The position numbers were made by a program, and so were the translations under genes. Of a stretch of 34,396 nt of DNA, positions 17,665-30,030 are shown piece after piece. Positions within the stretch are counted from its first letter, which is position 1; each line of letters starts with the position of its first letter. The notes below the pieces were generated by a model that saw only the letters and a list, made by a program, of their open reading frames with translations, ran no database searches and was not told the DNA's origin. Source of the DNA: Bacteroidaceae bacterium (lineage in GTDB: Bacteria > Bacteroidota > Bacteroidia > Bacteroidales > Bacteroidaceae); contig JAFUYT010000007.1 of assembly GCA_017470425.1 (NCBI GenBank), positions 1-34,396 on the forward strand, in the 5' to 3' direction.

Positions 17665-17856
17665 AATGGCAGGTTTCCTGGCTCTCCCCGGCAACTCTGC
17701 CTTCCCGATAGCGCTAAACGTTTTAGACGTTTAGCCATCTTCAGTGGCGTTATACGAGTCGCTTTCAAACGGGGATAACAGTAGCGGGTACTGCTCAGGA
17801 TTCTCACCTGATTCCCTTTTCTTGCACGGCAGCGAACGCCGTGCATCACCAATTCG
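17665..17856 (-). promoter_or_regulatory. Cobalamin riboswitch (minus strand)
   Basis: Read on the minus strand this has an AAGGGAATCAGGTGAGAATC core and a CAGTACCCGCTACTG stem, then the B12 box AGCCAGGAAACCTGCC (17668-17683 complement). It lies about 70 bases upstream of the TonB receptor start at 17599 and has its own promoter box at 17861-17868. No terminator-like T-run follows, so control is more likely at translation initiation. A peripheral arm of about 55 bases is almost identical to that of the plus-strand riboswitch. Confidence 0.93.
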
Positions 17857-17860
17857 GGCG

Positions 17861-17868
17861 CAAAGGTA
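17861..17868 (-). promoter_or_regulatory. -7 box driving the minus-strand riboswitch
   Basis: Reads TACCTTTG on the minus strand, placing transcription start just before the riboswitch core. It is about 130 bp from the matching box on the plus strand. Confidence 0.7.
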
Positions 17869-17995
17869 CACATTATTAAGAGAAAAGTGAAAAAGAAGGT
17901 GAGAAAAATGATGAATTAACTTATAAAGAAGAGAAAAAGCAGTCCTCTTCTTCATTTTTCCTTCCTTCCCTTCTTCGCTTTCATAGATTTTTACT

Positions 17996-18003
17996 TACCT
18001 TTG
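17996..18003 (+). promoter_or_regulatory. -7 box driving the plus-strand riboswitch
   Basis: TACCTTTG fits TAnnTTTG, followed by the riboswitch about 10 bases later. The 17870-17995 stretch between the two promoters is AT-rich and gene-free, so any regulator binding there could act on both arms. Confidence 0.7.
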
Positions 18004-18009
18004 CCCCCG

Positions 18010-18198
18010 CATTTGGCAATCTGGTGGCAGAAAGCCACGAGATGTAAGGGAATCCGGTGGGAATCCGGAACAGTGCCTGCTGCTGTAATCCCTATCCAAG
18101 GTGCGCCTGTATAACGCCACTGAGATGGCTAAACGATTAAAACGTTTAGCGCTATCGGGAAGGTAAGGCGCACTGGGGAAAGTCAGAAGACCTGCCAA
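18010..18198 (+). promoter_or_regulatory. Cobalamin riboswitch (plus strand)
   Basis: Contains the core AAGGGAATCCGGTGGGAATC (18046-18065), the CAGTGCCTGCTGCTGT stem and the B12 box AGTCAGAAGACCTGCC at 18181-18196. It precedes a TonB receptor gene by about 50 bases. A short complementary gcgcaag segment near the start codon and the absence of a T-run point to translational control. Confidence 0.94.
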
Positions 18199-22149: not shown

Positions 22150-24231
22150 ATGAAATTATCCCTTTTTATGACGGCTGTGGCAATGTCCACCGCCTCTTTT
22201 GCTGCGGACGTCGATTCCATCGACAACCGCCACACCCATGACCTGAATCCCGTCGTCATCACTGGCACCGGCACCTACCACCGCGCCGATAACTCACCAG
22301 TTGCCGTGAAGGTCATCACGGCCAAAGAACTGAAGGATGCACAGGTGACCACCCTCCAGGATGCCCTTGCGCGGCTGACCACCAACGTCACTACTCATAC
22401 CAACGGCATGGGCACCTTCGTGAACTTCAATGGCGTCAGTGATGACTACATCGTCATCCTCGAGAACGGCAAGCGCGTCAGCGGCGACGACCGCTGGAAC
22501 CGCATCAGCATGGAAAATGTCAAGCGTATCGAGGTCTTCAGCGGTGCCGCCTCGGCACTCTACGGCAGCGATGCCATCGCCGGCGTCATCAATATCATCA
22601 CGGATGACAGCCGCGAACTCGTCTCGGCGTCGTCGAACACGCGTTCCCTCAACAACGGCCGCATGGACGAGGACGTCAACGTGGAGGTCAACACGGAGAA
22701 GTTCTCCAGCCGCACCTCCTACACCCATCACCAGGCTGGCAACTGGCAGGTGAACCACTATCAGGAGTTCGAGGAAGGCGACCAGAAGGTGCTGAAGCTC
22801 ACAGGCCGTCCCATGTCGGCTGCCTTCCACAGCAACAACATCAGCGAACGTCTGGAGTGGCGCTTCAATGAGCAGTGGTCGGTCTATCTGCGCGGCTCCT
22901 ACTACGACTACCTCACCGACCGTCCCCAGTCGGCCACCTACTTCACCCAGAAGAAGACAACCGACAAGGCCACGAAGGCAACCACCTACACCTACACCCC
23001 CAAGCAGGCCTACACCTACGACCTCCATCACCGCTCCTATACCTATGGCGGCGGTGCCCGCTGGTCGCCCAACAGCCGTGTGCACGTCTATCTCGATGTC
23101 TATAGTGACAACTATTCCTCCAACTACGACTACTGGCAGACCGGTGAGGCTGAGGCTTACGACGAGACGCGCAAGCGCACTCACTACACCAACGAGACCC
23201 TCCGCGGCATCTTCCGCCTCGCCGACTGGAACAAGCTGTCCGCCGGCGCGGAGTTCGTGCAGGAGAGCCTCAACAGCGAGAGCGACAACATCGACTTCGA
23301 GACCACCAACACCTACAACCTCTTCGCACAGGATGAAATCAAGATTGTGAAGGGCTTGGAGGCCGTCGTGGGCGTTCGCTACACGCAGAACGACAACTTC
23401 GGTGCTGCCTTCACGCCCAATGCCGGCCTCTTCTACCACATCGGAGGCTTCCGCGTGCGTGCCAGCTACGCCGGTGGCTACCGCACCCCCACGCTCTCGC
23501 AGCTCTATGCCACCGACCAGGCCAAGACCACCGCGCGCTACACCCTCAACAACCCCGACCTGAAACCTGAGAAGAATCATTTCTTCAACGTCAATGTCGA
23601 GTACGGAAACAAGTGGATGAGCGTCAGCGTCAGCGGCTTCATGAACAAGATCCGCGACATGATCAACTACCGCACAATGACCAGCGACGAGGTTGCCGCC
23701 GATGCCCACCTCACTGCCTTGCAGGATGAAGGGTGGAAGACCATTCGTCAGCGCGACAACATCGACAAGGCCACGCTCCGCGGCATCAGTGCCTCCGTGA
23801 AGTTCCTCCTGCCATACGGTATCACCATCGGCGGCGGCTACACCTTCACCGACTCCAAGGCCGAGACGCAGACCTTGAACACGAAGACACAGCAGTATGA
23901 GGTCACAGAGTCGCCCGTCGATAAGAGCGTGAAGCACGTCGGCAACGTCCTCGTCGCATGGGACAAGACCTGGCACAAATATCACCTCAACATCACCCTC
24001 AACGGCCATATACAGGGTGAGCGCTACAGCAGCACCTATGGCTTCGCAGACGGCATCCAGCAGTGGGACTTGATGACGCGCCACACCATCACCCTCAGGC
24101 ACTTCACCCTGGAGCCCGGTGTCGGCATCGAGAACATCTTCAACCAGCGCGACACCTCGCCCTGGAACTCTAATTTCTCTACCATCAACCCCGGCCGCTC
24201 ATTTATTGCCAGTTTGAGGATGCAGTATTAA
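22150..24231 (+). CDS. Third TonB-dependent receptor
   Basis: A 693-aa outer membrane receptor with signal peptide LFMTAVAMSTASFA and a TonB-box-like NPVVITGTGT near residue 33. The plug motifs FVNFNGVSDDYIVILENGKR and ASALYGSDAIAGVINII are close to the 18246 receptor, so the two are paralogues of one subfamily with different barrels. The barrel has a Thr/Tyr/Lys-rich stretch near residues 275-300 (TDKATKATTYTYTPKQAYTY), perhaps an extracellular loop. It ends with an aromatic strand (RSFIASLRMQY). It lies 12 bases after the adenosyltransferase. A different corrinoid specificity from the first receptor is plausible. Confidence 0.92.
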   Translation: MKLSLFMTAVAMSTASFAADVDSIDNRHTHDLNPVVITGTGTYHRADNSPVAVKVITAKELKDAQVTTLQDALARLTTNVTTHTNGMGTFVNFNGVSDDYIVILENGKRVSGDDRWNRISMENVKRIEVFSGAASALYGSDAIAGVINIITDDSRELVSASSNTRSLNNGRMDEDVNVEVNTEKFSSRTSYTHHQAGNWQVNHYQEFEEGDQKVLKLTGRPMSAAFHSNNISERLEWRFNEQWSVYLRGSYYDYLTDRPQSATYFTQKKTTDKATKATTYTYTPKQAYTYDLHHRSYTYGGGARWSPNSRVHVYLDVYSDNYSSNYDYWQTGEAEAYDETRKRTHYTNETLRGIFRLADWNKLSAGAEFVQESLNSESDNIDFETTNTYNLFAQDEIKIVKGLEAVVGVRYTQNDNFGAAFTPNAGLFYHIGGFRVRASYAGGYRTPTLSQLYATDQAKTTARYTLNNPDLKPEKNHFFNVNVEYGNKWMSVSVSGFMNKIRDMINYRTMTSDEVAADAHLTALQDEGWKTIRQRDNIDKATLRGISASVKFLLPYGITIGGGYTFTDSKAETQTLNTKTQQYEVTESPVDKSVKHVGNVLVAWDKTWHKYHLNITLNGHIQGERYSSTYGFADGIQQWDLMTRHTITLRHFTLEPGVGIENIFNQRDTSPWNSNFSTINPGRSFIASLRMQY

Positions 24232-24241
24232 ATATTTTTTC

Positions 24242-24263
24242 TACCTTTGCGCCGTCAAAGGAG
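24242..24263 (+). promoter_or_regulatory. -7 box and Shine-Dalgarno for the cobD::cbiP gene
   Basis: TACCTTTG (24242-24249) begins 10 bases after the receptor stop, and AAAGGAG (24257-24263) lies 5 bases before ATG 24269. A Shine-Dalgarno this clear is rare in this phylum. Together they suggest an independent promoter with a very short leader, so the downstream biosynthesis genes may not depend only on the riboswitch. Confidence 0.55.
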
Positions 24264-24268
24264 ATGAT

Positions 24269-27055
24269 ATGCTGAACGGACACGGCGACGATGCCTACCG
24301 CTACGAAGGTATCCGCCATAATTTCAGTAGCAATATCTTCAGCCATGCCGACCTCGGCGGGCTGAAGACTTTTCTTGCTACCCGCCTGGATGCCATTGAC
24401 CACTATCCGGAACCGGAACCGCGCGCACTGGAGCGCCTGATAGCCGAGCGCAGTGGGGTAGGGGAGGACTGCGTGCTCGTCACCAACGGAGCCACAGAAG
24501 CCATCTATTTGATTGCGCAGAGCAGGCTGAGAGCCAACGGACCCACCCCCCTGCCAATTCCTCCAGCCGGAACACTAAATAGTTCCGTATTAGGTTCACC
24601 TTGTAGGGAAGAGAGTGGTCGCCTTTCAAAGACAGTCATCTTCTCCCCGACCTTCTCTGAATATGCCGACGCCTGCCGGATGGCTGGCCTCGAAGTAGCA
24701 ACGGAGAGTGTTGGGTGCTCTGCGGCTGTGCCGCAGAGTTTCCCCCTCGTCTGGCTCTGCAACCCCAATAACCCCACCGGCACCGTCCTCCCCAGAGAAG
24801 ATGTCCTGCGTCTGGCAGCACAAAGCGAGCTGCTCGTCCTCGACCAGTCCTACGAGGACTACACGCTGGAGGCCCTCCTGACACCCGCTGAGGCCGTCGC
24901 CGCAGGCAACATCCTGCAGCTCCATTCCCTCACCAAAAGATATGCCGTTCCCGGCCTCCGCATCGGTTATGTCGTGGGTGCCCCGGCGCTCATCGAACAG
25001 CTGCGCCGCCGCTTGCATCCCTGGTCGGTGAACGCCCTCGCCATCGAGGCGGCCCTTTGGTTGATCAAGCACGATGTGAAGGTCATCCCAGACCTGCCCG
25101 CCTACCTCGCAGAGGCACAAAGGCTGCGCCAGGCGCTGGCGGCGCTGCCCGGCATCACCGTGGAACCCACGCAGACCAACTTCATGCTCTGCCGTCTCGA
25201 CGAGCACGGCGGCTTCACCGCCGCCGAACTGAAGGACTACCTCGCTACGCACCACAGCATCCTCATCCGCGATGCCTCCAACTTCGAGAGCCTCACCCCC
25301 TACCACTTCCGCGTGGCAGCACAGACAAAGGATGAAGATGACTTGCTGATAGATTCAATCAAGAAGGACCCCCTCCCGTCCCCCCCGAGGGGGGGCGACC
25401 ATGTCCTCGGAGACGCAAGCGGAAACGCAAGTCACCCCTCGGGGGGATTTAGAGGGGGTCCCAGGGGGACAGTAGCGGGTCATCCCATAATGCTCTGTGG
25501 CACAGGCAGCGATGTCGGCAAGAGTGTCCTTGCCACCGCCCTCTGCCGCATCTTCCTGCAAGACGGTTACCACCCCGCACCCTTCAAGGCGCAGAACATG
25601 GCGCTGAACTCCTACGCGACCCCCGAGGGGTTGGAGATAGGTCGTGCACAGGCCGTGCAGGCGGAGGCTGCAGGCATCCCCTGCCACACCGACATGAACC
25701 CGCTGCTCCTGAAGCCGCAGAGCGACCACACCAGCCAGGTCGTGCTACATGGCAAACCCATCGGCAACCGCGATGCCTATGATTATTGGAGACGAAGACC
25801 CACCCCCGACCCCTCCCGTGAGGGAGGGGAGAGAAAGCCCCTCTCCGACTTCCCCCATGGGGGGGAGAGAAGAATAGTAGCCGCGGGGAGTAATGAAGAC
25901 ATTAGCCTAGCAGTCCTCCCCCCCACGGGGGGAGATAGAGAGGGGTCCGACTTCCGCGCAGAAGTCTGTGCCGCCTACGACCGCCTTGCTGCCCGCTACA
26001 ATCCCATCGTGATGGAAGGAGCAGGCAGCATCTCGGAACTGAACCTCCGCGACACCGACCTCGTGAACCTGCCCATGGCGCGCTACGCCGATGCCGCCGT
26101 CATCCTCGTGGCCGACATCGACCGCGGCGGCGTCTTCGCCTCCGTCTATGGCAGCATCGCCCTGCAGACACCCGAAGACCGCGCCCGCATCAAGGGCATC
26201 ATCATCAACAAGTTCCGTGGCGACCTCCGCCTCTTCGATGAAGGTCGCAAGATGATTGAGGAGCTGTGCGGCGTTCCCGTCCTCGGCGTCATCCCCTATG
26301 CCAAGGACATCCACATCGAGGAAGAGGACAGCGTGAGCCTGGAACAGAAACAGCGCCACCTCGCCCAGGGAAAGGTGAACATCGCTGTGGTGCTGTTGCG
26401 CCACATCAGCAATTTCACGGACTTCAATGCCCTTGAGCGCGACCCGCGCGTGAACCTATTCTATAGTAATAATGTCGAAGACCTCCAGCGTGCCGACATC
26501 ATCGTCCTGCCCGGCACCAAAGCCACCCTCGACGACCTCATGGAGCTGCGCCGCAATGGCTGCGCCCAGGCCATCCAGCGGGCAGCACGCGATGGTCACA
26601 CCGTGGTAGGCATCTGCGGCGGCTATCAGATGATGGGTCAGAGCGTGCAGGATCCCGATGGCATCGAAGGCTCCATCGCTGCGCTGCCAGGCCTGGGGCT
26701 ACTGCCCATCACCACCACGATGACCCCCGAGAAGACTACACAGCAAGTGAACTTCCTCTTTGAGGGTCAGCCGTGCAAGGGCTATGAGATCCACCAGGGC
26801 ATTAGCACCACCGATCAGGCCATTCTGCGGACCGACCATTGCATCGGCACCTACATCCACGGCTTCCTCGACAACGCCCCCGTCATCGAAGCCCTCCTGG
26901 CACCCTTCGCCGACCGCGCCACCGCTGCTGCCAAGCCCTTCGACTACGCCGCCTTCAAGGAAGAGCAGTACAACCGCTTGGCCGACCACGTCCGCCACCA
27001 TCTCGACATGGACAAGCTCTATGAGATCATGAAAATTGAAACATTGAAATATTGA
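24269..27055 (+). CDS. cobD-cbiP: Fusion of threonine-phosphate decarboxylase and adenosylcobyric acid synthase
   Basis: A single 928-codon frame encodes two enzymes. Residues 1-365 are a PLP fold-type I decarboxylase (CobD): RYEGIRHNFSSN near the start, VWLCNPNNPTGTV near 165, PLP lysine K223 in LHSLTKRYAVPGLRIGY. It makes aminopropanol phosphate from threonine phosphate. Residues 408-928 are cobyric acid synthase (CbiP): P-loop GTGSDVGKS at 411-419, APFKAQNMALNSY, VMEGAGSISELNL, amidotransferase Cys783 (GICGGYQMMG) and His864 (YIHGFLDN). The linker 366-407 and about 50 residues near 508-566 are encoded by GC-rich palindromic repeats; CobD also has foreign-looking inserts near 90-122 and 147-160. 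The two products are the substrates of CbiB encoded next. A separate CbiP could start at ATG 25490. Confidence 0.88.
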   Translation: MLNGHGDDAYRYEGIRHNFSSNIFSHADLGGLKTFLATRLDAIDHYPEPEPRALERLIAERSGVGEDCVLVTNGATEAIYLIAQSRLRANGPTPLPIPPAGTLNSSVLGSPCREESGRLSKTVIFSPTFSEYADACRMAGLEVATESVGCSAAVPQSFPLVWLCNPNNPTGTVLPREDVLRLAAQSELLVLDQSYEDYTLEALLTPAEAVAAGNILQLHSLTKRYAVPGLRIGYVVGAPALIEQLRRRLHPWSVNALAIEAALWLIKHDVKVIPDLPAYLAEAQRLRQALAALPGITVEPTQTNFMLCRLDEHGGFTAAELKDYLATHHSILIRDASNFESLTPYHFRVAAQTKDEDDLLIDSIKKDPLPSPPRGGDHVLGDASGNASHPSGGFRGGPRGTVAGHPIMLCGTGSDVGKSVLATALCRIFLQDGYHPAPFKAQNMALNSYATPEGLEIGRAQAVQAEAAGIPCHTDMNPLLLKPQSDHTSQVVLHGKPIGNRDAYDYWRRRPTPDPSREGGERKPLSDFPHGGERRIVAAGSNEDISLAVLPPTGGDREGSDFRAEVCAAYDRLAARYNPIVMEGAGSISELNLRDTDLVNLPMARYADAAVILVADIDRGGVFASVYGSIALQTPEDRARIKGIIINKFRGDLRLFDEGRKMIEELCGVPVLGVIPYAKDIHIEEEDSVSLEQKQRHLAQGKVNIAVVLLRHISNFTDFNALERDPRVNLFYSNNVEDLQRADIIVLPGTKATLDDLMELRRNGCAQAIQRAARDGHTVVGICGGYQMMGQSVQDPDGIEGSIAALPGLGLLPITTTMTPEKTTQQVNFLFEGQPCKGYEIHQGISTTDQAILRTDHCIGTYIHGFLDNAPVIEALLAPFADRATAAAKPFDYAAFKEEQYNRLADHVRHHLDMDKLYEIMKIETLKY
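24538..24630 (+). repeat. Foreign-looking in-frame insert in the CobD part
   Basis: About 93 bases, rich in C at the start (ggacccaccccc) and containing GGAAC-ACTAAATA-GTTCC (24569-24586), interrupt the CobD domain between RLRANG and TVIFSPTFSEY. The beginning resembles the cccaccccc start of the composite repeat, so this may be a decayed copy. Confidence 0.45.
24718..24738. repeat. Perfect hairpin inside CobD
   Basis: CTCTGCGG-CTGTG-CCGCAGAG, an 8-bp perfect stem with a 5-base loop, encodes residues CSAAVPQS just before the conserved VWLCNPNNPTG segment. It looks like a small palindromic insertion. Confidence 0.5.
25369..25475. repeat. GC-rich palindromic repeats forming the cobD::cbiP junction
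   Basis: Positions 25369-25396 carry a 28-base palindromic unit (ccccctcccgtccc...gaggggggc) found again, identical, in cbiB at 27729-27756. A second palindrome-like part follows (cacccctcgggggg...gagggggtccc, 25435-25461). Together they encode the Pro/Gly/Arg-rich linker that joins the two enzymes in frame. Confidence 0.8.
25794..25945 (+). repeat. 152-bp composite palindromic element in cbiP
   Basis: Three GC-rich palindromes separated by short spacers: cccctcccgtgagggagggg, then ttcccccatgggggggag, then ctcccccccacggggggag. The whole unit aligns, inverted, with 28927-29076 in cbiH::cbiC, including an exact 31-base match and an exact 22-base match. The first 38 bases recur, inverted, at 29412-29449 with one difference. 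It is read through in frame without a stop. Confidence 0.9.
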
Positions 27056-27073
27056 TAATTGAGATGCTTCTTT

Positions 27074-27108
27074 CATTCTTCACTCTTCATTCTTCATTCT
27101 TCATTCTA
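27074..27108 (+). repeat. Five-unit 7-bp array in the cbiB N-terminus
   Basis: Five contiguous heptamers CATTCTT, CACTCTT, CATTCTT, CATTCTT, CATTCTA start eight bases after the cbiB ATG and encode most of the first membrane helix (SFFTLHSSFFIL). Copy changes other than multiples of three would shift the frame. Confidence 0.82.
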
Positions 27109-27300
27109 TTAGCCCTCCTCCTCGGCTGGCTCCTCGACCTCTGCTTCGGCGACCCAGCCCGCCTGCCGCACCCCATCGTGTGGTTCGGTAAGGCCATCGC
27201 CGCCTGCGAGCATCGCTTCAATCGAGGCGCCCACCGCAAGCTGAAAGGCGCCCTCGTCGCCCTCACCCTCATCCTCTCGACTTTTCTCCTTACAGACATA

Positions 27301-27321
27301 ATACATTATACATTATACATT
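27301..27321 (+). repeat. Three perfect ATACATT units at the cbiB frame break
   Basis: Three identical 7-base units in a row, exactly where the N-terminal and C-terminal cbiB frames part. A loss of seven bases changes the frame by the amount needed to rejoin them. Confidence 0.9.
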
Positions 27322-27728
27322 GTTCATCGCTTTCAACGCGCTCACCGTCTTCTACTGTCTCGCCGGCACAACGCTCATCCGCGAGGTGCGTGCCGTCTTC
27401 CTGGCGCTTGACCGTTCTCTGGAGGAGGGCAGGCAGCAGGTAGCCCGCATCGTGGGGCGCGACACCAGCGAGCTGTCAGCTCAGGAGGTGCGGACGGCAG
27501 CGCTGGAGACGCTGGCAGAGAACCTCAGCGACGGCGTCGTGGCACCCCTCTTCTGGTTCGCCTTGCTCGGCGCTCCCGGTATGTGGACCTACAAGATGGT
27601 GAACACCCTCGACTCCATGATAGGCTACCGCACCGAGCGCTACCGCGACTTCGGCTGCTGGGCCGCCCACATTGATGACATCGCCAATTACATCCCTGCC
27701 CGCCTCACCGCCCTACTGATGATTTCAG

Positions 27729-27756
27729 CCCCCTCCCGTCCCCCCCGAGGGGGGGC
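27729..27756. repeat. 28-bp palindromic repeat in cbiB
   Basis: Identical over 28 bases to the unit in the cobD::cbiP linker at 25369-25396, same orientation. It is read in frame in cbiB as part of a Pro/Arg/Gly-rich loop. Confidence 0.85.
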
Positions 27757-28040
27757 TCTCTTCTCCTTCGTCCGCCGCTACGGACGCTGCCACGCCTCTC
27801 CCAACAGCGGCTACCCCGAGGCCGCCCTCGCTGGCATCCTCGACTGTCGCTTCGGCGGACCGCACTATTACTTCGGAGAACTCTTCGACAAACCCTATAT
27901 CGGCGACAACGACCGTCCACTGACCACCGAGGATATGCGCATCGCCGTGCGCGTCAACCGCACCACAGAAGTCATGATGCTCGCCCTCGCCCTCCTCGCC
28001 CTCTACCTCAACCCCCTATCAGCTTAGAATCCTTCCATCT

Positions 28041-28200
28041 CTCATTTTCTCATTTTCTCATTCTCTCATTCTCTCATTTCCCCATTTCCCCATTTCCTCA
28101 TTTTCTCATTTTCTCATTTCCTCATTTCCTCATTTCCTCATTTTCTCATTTCCCCATTTCCTCATTTTCTAATTTCCTCATTTTCTAATTTTCTAAATCC
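28041..28200 (+). repeat. Twenty-unit 8-bp pyrimidine-rich array before cbiH::cbiC
   Basis: Exactly 20 contiguous 8-base units (160 bp) vary around CTCATTTT, with variants CTCATTTC, CTCATTCT, CCCATTTC and CTAATTTC. The array fills the gap between cbiB and cbiH::cbiC and ends 12 bases before the start codon. There are no spacers, so it is not a CRISPR. The 28028-28212 gap holds nothing else. Confidence 0.9.
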
Positions 28201-28212
28201 CCCCCCTCTCTC

Positions 28213-29769
28213 ATGAGCAAGATCATCGTAGCGGGCCTCGGCCCTGGAAGCCCCGAAGACATGACGCCGGCAGTACTCGCTGCCATGCGCGACGCGGACG
28301 CAGTAGTAGGCTACAAGTACTATTTCCGTTTCGTGGAACCCTATCTGAAGCCTGGCTGCGAGTGCATCGACACGGGCATGAAGCGGGAACGCGAGCGCGC
28401 CGAGCAGGCCTTTGCGCTGGCCGAACAAGGCAAGAACGTCGTGGTCATCTCCTCCGGTGATGCCGGCATCTACGGCATGGCACCGCTCCTCTTCGAGATG
28501 CAGCGCGAGCGCGCAGTCAGCGGTTTACCCGCTGACATCACTATCGAAGTCCTCCCCGGCATCTCTGCCTTCCAGAAGGCCGCCTCGCTGTTGGGCGCAC
28601 CCATCGGCCATGACCTGTGCATCATCTCGCTTTCCGACCTGATGACCCCTTGGTCGCTCATCGAGAAGCGCATCCGCGCCGCTGCCATCGGCGACTTCGT
28701 CACTGCCGTCTATAACCCGAAGTCCCACGGCCGCTACTGGCAGCTCTATCGTCTTCGCGAGCTTTTCCTCAATGAAGGTCGCTCTCCCGAGACGCCCGTC
28801 GGCATCGTTCGTCAGGCTGGCCGCCCCGAGCAGGAAGTCACGCTGACCACCCTCGGCGACCTCGACCCCGAGCAGGTCGATATGTTCACCATCCTCATCA
28901 TCGGCAACAGCCAGAGCTATATAAGGCCCCTCTCTAACTCCCCCCGTGGGGGGGAGGACAAAGAGCAGCGGGCTGTGTTCATCACGCCCCGCGGCTACTA
29001 TTCTTCTCTCCCCCCCACGGGGGGAGTCGGAGAGGGACTTTCTCACCCCTCCCTTGGGGAGGGGATGGGGGTGGGCCCCTCCATCATGAACGAATCCTTC
29101 CGCACCATCCTCTCCGAGATGCAGCACCCCGACGTGCCCCGCTGGCGCCTTTGGCCGCTGCTGCACGCCATCCACACCACTGTGGATTTCAGCATGGAGG
29201 AATGTCTGTGGATGGACGAACGAGCCACGGAGATCATTTATAATAAGGTGGCCGACGGCAGCCTCAAGCATATCGTCACCGATGTCAGCATGGCAGCAGC
29301 CGGCATCCGCAAAGGCGCCCTCCAGCGCCTCGGCATCGAAGTCCACTGCTACATCAACGATCCCCGCATCGCCGACATTGTCAAGTCCCCCGACAGCGTC
29401 GGCCGCCACTACTCCCCTCCCTCACGGGAGGGGTTGGGGGTGGGTCTTCTCACCCGCAGCCAAGCCTGTATGCGCCTGGCCGCCACGGAATACCCCGATG
29501 CCCTCTATGTTGTCGGCAATGCCCCTACCGCCCTCTTCGAGATCTGTGACCTCGTGCGCAAGGGCGCGCTGCACCCCGCCGGCATCATCGCCGCTCCCGT
29601 CGGCTTCGTCCATGTCTGTGAGAGCAAGCACGCCGCCAAGACCCTCCGCAACATCCCCAAGATCATCGTGGAAGGTCGCAAGGGCGGCAGCAACCTCGCC
29701 GCCACCCTCGTCAACGCCATCCTCACCTACGACGATGCCGCCACCCTCACTCCTGGCCGCGACCTTTAA
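28213..29769 (+). CDS. cbiH-cbiC: Fusion of precorrin-3B C17-methyltransferase and precorrin-8X methylmutase
   Basis: A 518-aa bifunctional corrin enzyme. Residues 1-263 are CbiH/CobJ (C17 methylation with ring contraction): IIVAGLGPGSPEDMTP at the start, VISSGDAGIYGMAPLLFEM near 76, VLPGISAFQKAASLLGAP near 112, IIGNSQSYI near 232 and a terminal ITPRGYY. Residues 292-518 are CbiC/CobH (methyl shift from C11 to C12): LLHAIHTTVDFSM with the likely catalytic His, HIVTDVSMAAAGI, YVVGNAPTALFEI and APVGFVHVCESK. Three Pro/Gly/Arg-rich segments are encoded by palindromic repeats: about 238-255, 264-291 (the interdomain linker) and 400-414. An independent CbiC could start at ATG 29086. The gene sits behind an octamer array with no visible Shine-Dalgarno. 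Confidence 0.92.
   Translation: MSKIIVAGLGPGSPEDMTPAVLAAMRDADAVVGYKYYFRFVEPYLKPGCECIDTGMKRERERAEQAFALAEQGKNVVVISSGDAGIYGMAPLLFEMQRERAVSGLPADITIEVLPGISAFQKAASLLGAPIGHDLCIISLSDLMTPWSLIEKRIRAAAIGDFVTAVYNPKSHGRYWQLYRLRELFLNEGRSPETPVGIVRQAGRPEQEVTLTTLGDLDPEQVDMFTILIIGNSQSYIRPLSNSPRGGEDKEQRAVFITPRGYYSSLPPTGGVGEGLSHPSLGEGMGVGPSIMNESFRTILSEMQHPDVPRWRLWPLLHAIHTTVDFSMEECLWMDERATEIIYNKVADGSLKHIVTDVSMAAAGIRKGALQRLGIEVHCYINDPRIADIVKSPDSVGRHYSPPSREGLGVGLLTRSQACMRLAATEYPDALYVVGNAPTALFEICDLVRKGALHPAGIIAAPVGFVHVCESKHAAKTLRNIPKIIVEGRKGGSNLAATLVNAILTYDDAATLTPGRDL
28927..29076 (-). repeat. 150-bp composite palindromic element in cbiH::cbiC (inverted copy)
   Basis: The reverse complement aligns end to end with 25794-25945 in cbiP. 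The central part of this copy also carries the codons for the conserved CbiH end TPRGYY, so one side of the element merges with native gene sequence. It is in frame throughout. Confidence 0.9.
29412..29449 (-). repeat. 38-bp short copy of the palindromic element in cbiC
   Basis: The reverse complement matches 25794-25831 of the cbiP copy at 37 of 38 positions. It encodes SPPSREGLGVG in the CbiC domain. Confidence 0.9.
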
Positions 29770-29884
29770 CCCCACTGGCCGCGACCTGTAGCGTAGCTTG
29801 ACATACTCAGCTTCTAACTCTTATCGAAACTGAATCATAGTAGAAATTCTGTTTGCGGAAACTGGATGCAGGAAATCTGTTTTG

Positions 29885-29948
29885 TTACACGTTATTTGTT
29901 TTCGTGGAGTTACACGTCTTTTAGTGACGTGCGATTACACGTCTTTTG
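29885..29948 (+). repeat. Three TTACACGT repeats at exact 25-bp spacing
   Basis: TTACACGTTATTTG, TTACACGTCTTTT and TTACACGTCTTTTG start at 29885, 29910 and 29935. They lie 60-115 bp upstream of a strong promoter, the right place for a transcription factor array. The wider 29770-30000 gap also has a 13-base direct repeat (ctggccgcgacct) straddling the cbiC stop. Confidence 0.7.
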
Positions 29949-29999
29949 TGCAAAGGAACGTATTTTTGTGTCTCTTACCAAATATTTTTCCCTTTTTCT

Positions 30000-30030
30000 T
30001 TTGCTGAATCCCTAAATATCTCTATTTTTG
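30000..30030 (+). promoter_or_regulatory. Near-consensus Bacteroidota promoter
   Basis: TTTG (30000-30003), 19 bases, then TATTTTTG (30023-30030). This is the best promoter in the window, matching both boxes and the preferred spacing. The predicted start is near 30037, leaving about 370 bases before the next gene. Confidence 0.75.

Follow-up and report, generated by a model that had tools for sequence, protein, structure and literature searches.

The window analysed here, a 34,396-nucleotide stretch (contig JAFUYT010000007.1, assembly GCA_017470425.1) of a Bacteroidaceae genome, raises the question of how one palindrome-rich segment came to lie, in opposite orientations, inside two different genes, cbiP and cbiHC. 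The first gene (24269–27055, plus strand, from the ORF list) encodes a CobD-like aminotransferase fused to CbiP, with Pfam matches to Aminotran_1_2, CbiA and GATase_3; the second (28213–29769, plus strand) encodes a CbiH::CbiC fusion, identified by matches to TP_methylase and CbiC and by its orthologues. As a sequence-only reading of this DNA had stated, positions 25794–25945 in cbiP and the reverse complement of 28927–29076 in cbiHC align end to end in a global alignment, with perfect matches over 31 and 22 bases, and both copies are open in frame within their ORFs. They are 85% identical (E 1e-39 in a search of the genome with the unit), and a repeat finder detected an ungapped 98-nt core common to both and 86% complementary. 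Another copy, 100% identical, is found on contig C26, which matches the window at 99.94% over 9,980 bp; because C26 is thus a near-duplicate of the window, that copy was rejected as an independent insertion.

The segment had been taken for one palindromic element that adds 45–50 non-family residues to each enzyme. Its GC-rich hairpins were confirmed, but not its unity: the 150-bp unit is a composite of two inverted half-elements of about 33 bp (type B) with native cbiH codons between them and a hairpin of another family (type A) outside. In the linker between the two domains of CbiHC, a B half (28927–28959, plus strand; predicted peptide PLSNSPRGGED) is followed by native codons for V-F-I-T-P-R-G-Y-Y-S-S (28975–29006, plus strand), the inverted partner of the B half (29007–29037, minus strand; LPPTGGVGEG) and an adjoining type-A hairpin (29040–29076, unstranded), at a junction similar to that in cbiP. 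The cbiP copy comprises a type-A hairpin (GACCCACCCCCGACCCCTCCC..GGGAGGGGAG; 25794–25831, unstranded), a B half (25838–25868, plus strand, from the alignment and tail-pattern sites), the cbiH codons for VFITPRGYYSS in reverse complement (25869–25900, minus strand) and the inverted B partner (25913–25945, minus strand, from the alignment, the repeat finder and tail-pattern sites). We therefore rejected a single 150-bp element, its middle being native cbiH sequence, and for cbiHC the number of added residues was in part overstated, as VFITPRGYY is native. The CbiC half contains a further in-frame type-A hairpin (29412–29449, minus strand), found by the genome search and the repeat finder and falling in a gap of the orthologue alignment.

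The host genome (G000) is that of a rumen bacterium, 2.42 Mb in 36 contigs from an assembly estimated to be 72% complete. It carries 158 type-A and 109 type-B cores, compared with none for either reversed-pattern control, so that the parts of the unit are abundant; the 150-bp composite is not itself a repeated family. Among the 73 matches to the unit listed, with 40 of 125 candidates scored, the remaining long matches are B–B doublets of 69–74% identity, and all others are short, single-hairpin matches. A single local duplication, named beforehand as an outcome that would undo the claim, accounts for the composite and fails for its parts. Type-B halves read roughly (A)RG-CCCCTCTCYNNCTCCCCCCGTGGGGGGGAGRRC, with G at position −1 in 95% and a purine at −2 in 99% of 75 halves, and are found either alone or in inverted pairs that form, with a spacer between them, doublets of about 100–112 bp, a frequent predicted peptide of the doublet being PLSNSPRGGED...LPPTGGAGRGA. 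The pattern recovered 35 doublets, 33 of them in genes; the in-gene lengths are 1 mod 3 in 22, 0 mod 3 in 11 and 2 mod 3 in none, counts that come from related and partly overlapping copies and do not form an independent test.

The two families differ in where they reside. In a sample of 376,610 bp chosen by contig and not by hit (C1, C3, C5 and C8 whole, C4, C6, C7 and C9 in part, C2 skipped), in which our own hexamer caller predicted 273 genes and a coding fraction of 0.904, type-B cores were genic in 32 cases and between genes in none, and type-A cores were genic in 18, between genes in 15 and at edges in two. We also located type B by its tail pattern, using the 69 sites with no more than one mismatch among the 100 of 150 sites listed; weaker sites were ignored because at three mismatches the reversed control gave 55 and 39 matches against 67 and 83. 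After two sites on C26 were left out, the other 67 made up 56 loci, 54 of them in frame inside called genes and two intergenic (by site, 65 of 67 in called genes). A hairpin partner was present at 63 of these 67 sites; of the four without one by pattern, C31:86939 may be a chance match. The truA locus is counted twice, since C22:260 and C31:99884 are one locus on two contigs. Type-A loci were in genes (11), intergenic (9) or mixed (4), and with the mixed loci dropped the families differ significantly (Fisher p 5e-5). The coding preference of type B holds relative to type A only: 54 of 56 is not significantly different from the coding fraction (p 0.085), and type A falls in genes less often than that fraction predicts (11 of 20 unmixed loci, p 4e-5), so that genes present no obstacle to type B. 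Genic residence is weaker elsewhere, since in the relative G015 20 of 27 B loci lie in called genes (one an ORF of only 61 residues) and seven between genes, in 20 stretches fetched in list order from 81 sites, and 27 of 31 loci from ten genomes, G015 included, are genic (from 30 search loci, four of them within the G015 stretches and some the same place twice).

The sites listed place type B in 48 gene models, 47 of them distinct and two being the window's own; housekeeping genes make up many of them. Forty-six of these models were scanned against NCBIfam, and 41 had a family match at 1e-10 and five had none. Those above the curated cut-off include ileS, valS, metG, hisS, pheT, argS, cysS, gyrB, purL, clpB and tsaD, as well as truA, truB, prmC, ispD, pyrF, hemW, mazG, feoB, proA and cbiE/cbiT; rlmB and aroE matched below it. 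The seven aminoacyl-tRNA synthetases with type B exceed the number expected from gene length (p 5e-5, for an assumed 44 kb of synthetase genes). One gene contains four type-B hairpins with a period of 63 bp, or 21 codons, an in-frame tandem amplification (L219, G000:C5:135701-135931).

Insert-free orthologues, a comparison proposed at the outset, were found for CbiHC, CbiP and other proteins. We compared 13 sites with 54 orthologous stretches, using three to five relatives for each site; at all 13, the homology resumes beyond the insert in the same frame as before it. IleS, ValS, MetG, HisS, PheT, GyrB, PurL and MazG have a short loop in nearly all relatives in place of the element of G000, and the ClpB, TruB, PyrF and ProA sites are occupied by other, variable residues; native residues at the insert sites are often replaced, not merely split. 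These alignments, together with sequence matches to solved MetG, PheT and GyrB in which the inserts fall at a domain end or in gaps between aligned segments, place the inserts in predicted loops. Different elements can use the same loops: a second in-gene palindromic doublet (SPEGDT...EAPSGAVRGA) occupies in ClpB of G041 (L265) and PurL of G040 (L274) the same loops as type B does in G000, and pheT and clpB of G015 have a B doublet at the same site as G000 with a different spacer, which could mean that elements inserted there more than once or that the spacer has been replaced over time. The HemW doublet is common to G000 and G043, and the G003 site looks like a decayed copy of it. No target-site duplication was seen by eye in eight DNA alignments, in which the relatives are too diverged for short duplications. 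It is highly improbable that the residues are ancient family sequence, given the orthologues that lack them, or that the repeats are an artefact of assembly; the genome is incomplete and has a near-duplicate contig, but similar elements are found in other, separately assembled genomes.

The strength of the hairpins raises the question of whether the inserts are positively selected regulators, for instance by forming mRNA hairpins that delay the ribosome between domains or shield the transcript. The two inserts fold at −81.9 and −111.1 kcal/mol (z −5.46 and −7.59), and a comparison of six shared sites chosen from the hits gave divergence at 23 of 363 positions in the hairpin halves, 185 of 1001 in coding flanks and 49 of 240 in spacers. 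The lower divergence of the halves fits upkeep of the hairpins, but the set is biased toward it, the hairpin consensus having been used to find the loci, and it does not include the G003 HemW site. Sites also differ among species, relatives lack the element at most of the 13 sites, and HemW of G003 appears to have decayed, all of which makes a regulatory role improbable. Rfam at gathering scores detected no known RNA family in window positions 24000–30000. We infer that the inserts are translated and that their residence in genes is mainly that of tolerated selfish DNA.

The relationship between the two window copies can be read from the CbiHC linker. In insert-free orthologues of the genus and of named rumen assemblies it is approximately GNSQSY-xxxx-FITPRGYY-xxxx-GQxIM, and TPRGY is invariant in all 30 aligned CbiHC proteins. 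The window linker has a B half, FITPRGYY, the inverted B half and then the type-A hairpin; the cbiHC of G040 has both B halves without type A, and that of L062 the first B half only. This varying hairpin content, compared gene by gene, suggests stepwise accretion. The CbiHC linker is a recurrent site: counting identical proteins once and leaving out L059 and L060 as fragments, 39 of 97 distinct CbiHC proteins have an expanded linker and 26 of 97 a GC-rich hairpin in it, against 36 of 1,314 control windows in the same genes.

The native codons within the cbiP insert, in reverse complement, differ from the window's cbiHC at three of 32 positions, all third codon positions. The presence of cbiH codons in this orientation inside cbiP shows that the segment originated in a cbiHC gene and carried host codons along. 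L062 equals the window's cbiHC over the first 27 bases of the cbiP segment (three mismatches), and among the 14 nearest segments listed the window's own cbiHC alone continues with TATTCTTC as cbiP does, which points to the bacterium's own lineage as the likeliest donor. The second copy is best explained by a single copying event from cbiHC to cbiP. In G040, cbiP has no insert and cbiHC has the B pair; the cbiP loop there might be the decayed remnant of an insert. This is the one clear case of host-codon transfer found; cysS has a second B pair around native-looking codons (spacer SVAVGISEADLKELSETIHLFAEDIL).

Copying of this kind need not involve transposition, as a replication fork or gene-conversion tract could have jumped from one template to another at inverted hairpins that both cbiP and cbiHC already had, copying the segment in reverse. 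The two copies lie in opposite orientation on one contig, separated by about 3 kb, hairpins of both kinds are nearby, and type-A-like peptides occur in the cbiP loop of other species (L159, L160, L161 and L177), so that a hairpin could have been in cbiP first. The copied tract, however, stops at the outer hairpin ends on both sides, and related B doublets occur on many different contigs, so that the family must have moved over long distances in any case; template switching seems to us possible and on the unlikely side.

The explanation that we consider probable is that the window elements belong to mobile, hairpin-ended families whose in-frame copies survive in genes, and that the cbiHC unit was copied into cbiP. 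The elements are short and probably non-autonomous, belong to families spread through the genome, and would arrive in coding DNA by transposition-like movement with the hairpins as ends; selection for frame and loop would follow, copies that keep the frame in loops or linkers surviving and presumably being translated. Two half-elements flanking a native segment could then serve as the ends of another unit. In cbiHC the halves bracket VFITPRGYY, and this unit with the adjoining type-A hairpin would have been copied in opposite orientation into a variable cbiP loop. We infer that the movement depends on a putative enzyme acting in trans. The TnpA-REP/RAYT gene that the sequence-only reading proposed to look for did not turn up: PF01797 has no match in the contigs of G000 (72% complete). 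Across the genus it exceeds the cut-off in 17 of 61 genomes with no visible association with repeat hits, and among the six genomes above 60 bits only G055 has at least ten hits to the unit. This search did not identify RAYT as the mover, and strong matches in the genus track the repeat hits in no visible way. More speculatively, the family may live almost wholly in coding sequence, much of it essential, at recurrent loop sites, with the halves and a putative enzyme making any intervening coding segment a movable cassette; we hold this extension to be doubtful. If true, it would give bacteria a way to shuttle coding pieces from gene to gene, and the cbiHC-to-cbiP case already suggests a concrete route by which gene pieces enter another gene.

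Elements of this kind are already known, as Rickettsia palindromic elements (RPEs) and intragenic REP dimers, and those described here differ in lineage, in the missing GTAG/CGTC end tag, in their mostly coding location in G000 and in host-codon capture. The likeness to REP/BIME hairpins and to Rickettsia elements tolerated in coding sequence, noted from the sequence at the start, was upheld. According to sections of PMC3767692, RPEs are palindromic repeats of 100–150 bp, some lying in ORFs, where they leave the frame intact and fall at solvent-exposed positions; different families may be found near one site in different orthologues, and Rickettsia pheT and ileS carry RPE-7. Type B is likewise a palindromic repeat in frame in its host genes, pheT and ileS among them. 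It belongs to another phylum, consists of two GC-rich hairpin halves around a spacer with halves also found alone, and lacks the CGTC end that part of PMC3733652 reports for R. conorii RPEs; it is set apart from RPEs by description, and the portions of RPE papers at hand mention no codon capture. Wolbachia elements are grouped with RPEs as close known systems.

Passages of PMC3733652 describe intragenic GTAG/CGTC REPs as short hairpins, monomers and dimers with spacers, some in ORFs where they encode 20–30 residues, with tRNA synthetase genes and truB (the latter for R. conorii) among the hosts; they report CGTC repeats from Bacteroidetes and define the superfamily by an unpaired GTAG or CGTC at one hairpin end. 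In contrast, the 75 type-B halves and their profile have RG|CCCCTCTC at the outer end, with no tag by inspection. Most REPs in the same passages are intergenic, whereas type B of G000 is nearly all in called genes and so departs from extragenic REPs in location (54 of 56 loci genic among the sites listed; type A, 11 in, 9 between and 4 mixed). Inverted hairpin pairs with a spacer, dispersed copies and the enrichment of type A between genes recall REP/BIME. Excerpts of PMC6006769 assign tnpA-REP subclasses 2.4 and 2.6 to Bacteroidetes, 2.6 with atypical structures copied elsewhere; compared by description, type B differs in not being extragenic and in a genome without a PF01797 match. RepRanger lists Bacteroidota genomes, according to part of PMC12306157. 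The elements also resemble MITEs in their terminal inverted repeats (the halves of 35 doublets), their length of about 100 bp and the lack of a gene of their own, but no target-site duplication was seen in the eight alignments with diverged relatives and no parent transposon was found. The sequence-only reading knew of no in-gene element for this group, and titles and opening lines of abstracts in the open-access literature likewise yielded no recognisable description for Bacteroidales, Prevotella or Bacteroidetes; in-gene REPs are known in other groups (PMC3733652, in part). Protein evolution of the RPE type, considered conceivable in other prokaryotes in the relevant portion of a review (PMC10969869), appears to occur here, in a lineage far from Rickettsia and with overlapping targets (pheT and ileS; truB in R. 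conorii). Since both insert-bearing and insert-free orthologues are available, the tolerance of proteins for inserts and their retention are directly testable.

Several other features of the window were recorded. An inverted pair of hairpins of the kinds described above lies at the CobD::CbiP fusion junction (25369–25461, plus strand, repeat finder), and hairpin-like peptides also occur at the fusion junctions of L178 (G042) and L084, at the peptide level and with a pattern that worked on part of the rows; such elements may thus help to fuse neighbouring genes. The cbiB gene (27064–28027) appears by eye to be split over two frames near a ATACATTATACATT repeat, the Pfam match of its ORF 27320–28027 starts at profile position 80, and a further in-frame hairpin of these kinds lies within it (27729–27766, plus strand, repeat finder). 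Just upstream of cbiHC, positions 28033–28200 form an array of 8-bp CTCATTTT-like tandem repeats. A 41-nt inverted repeat, 95% complementary and with 382 nt between its arms, is located at 17700–18163.
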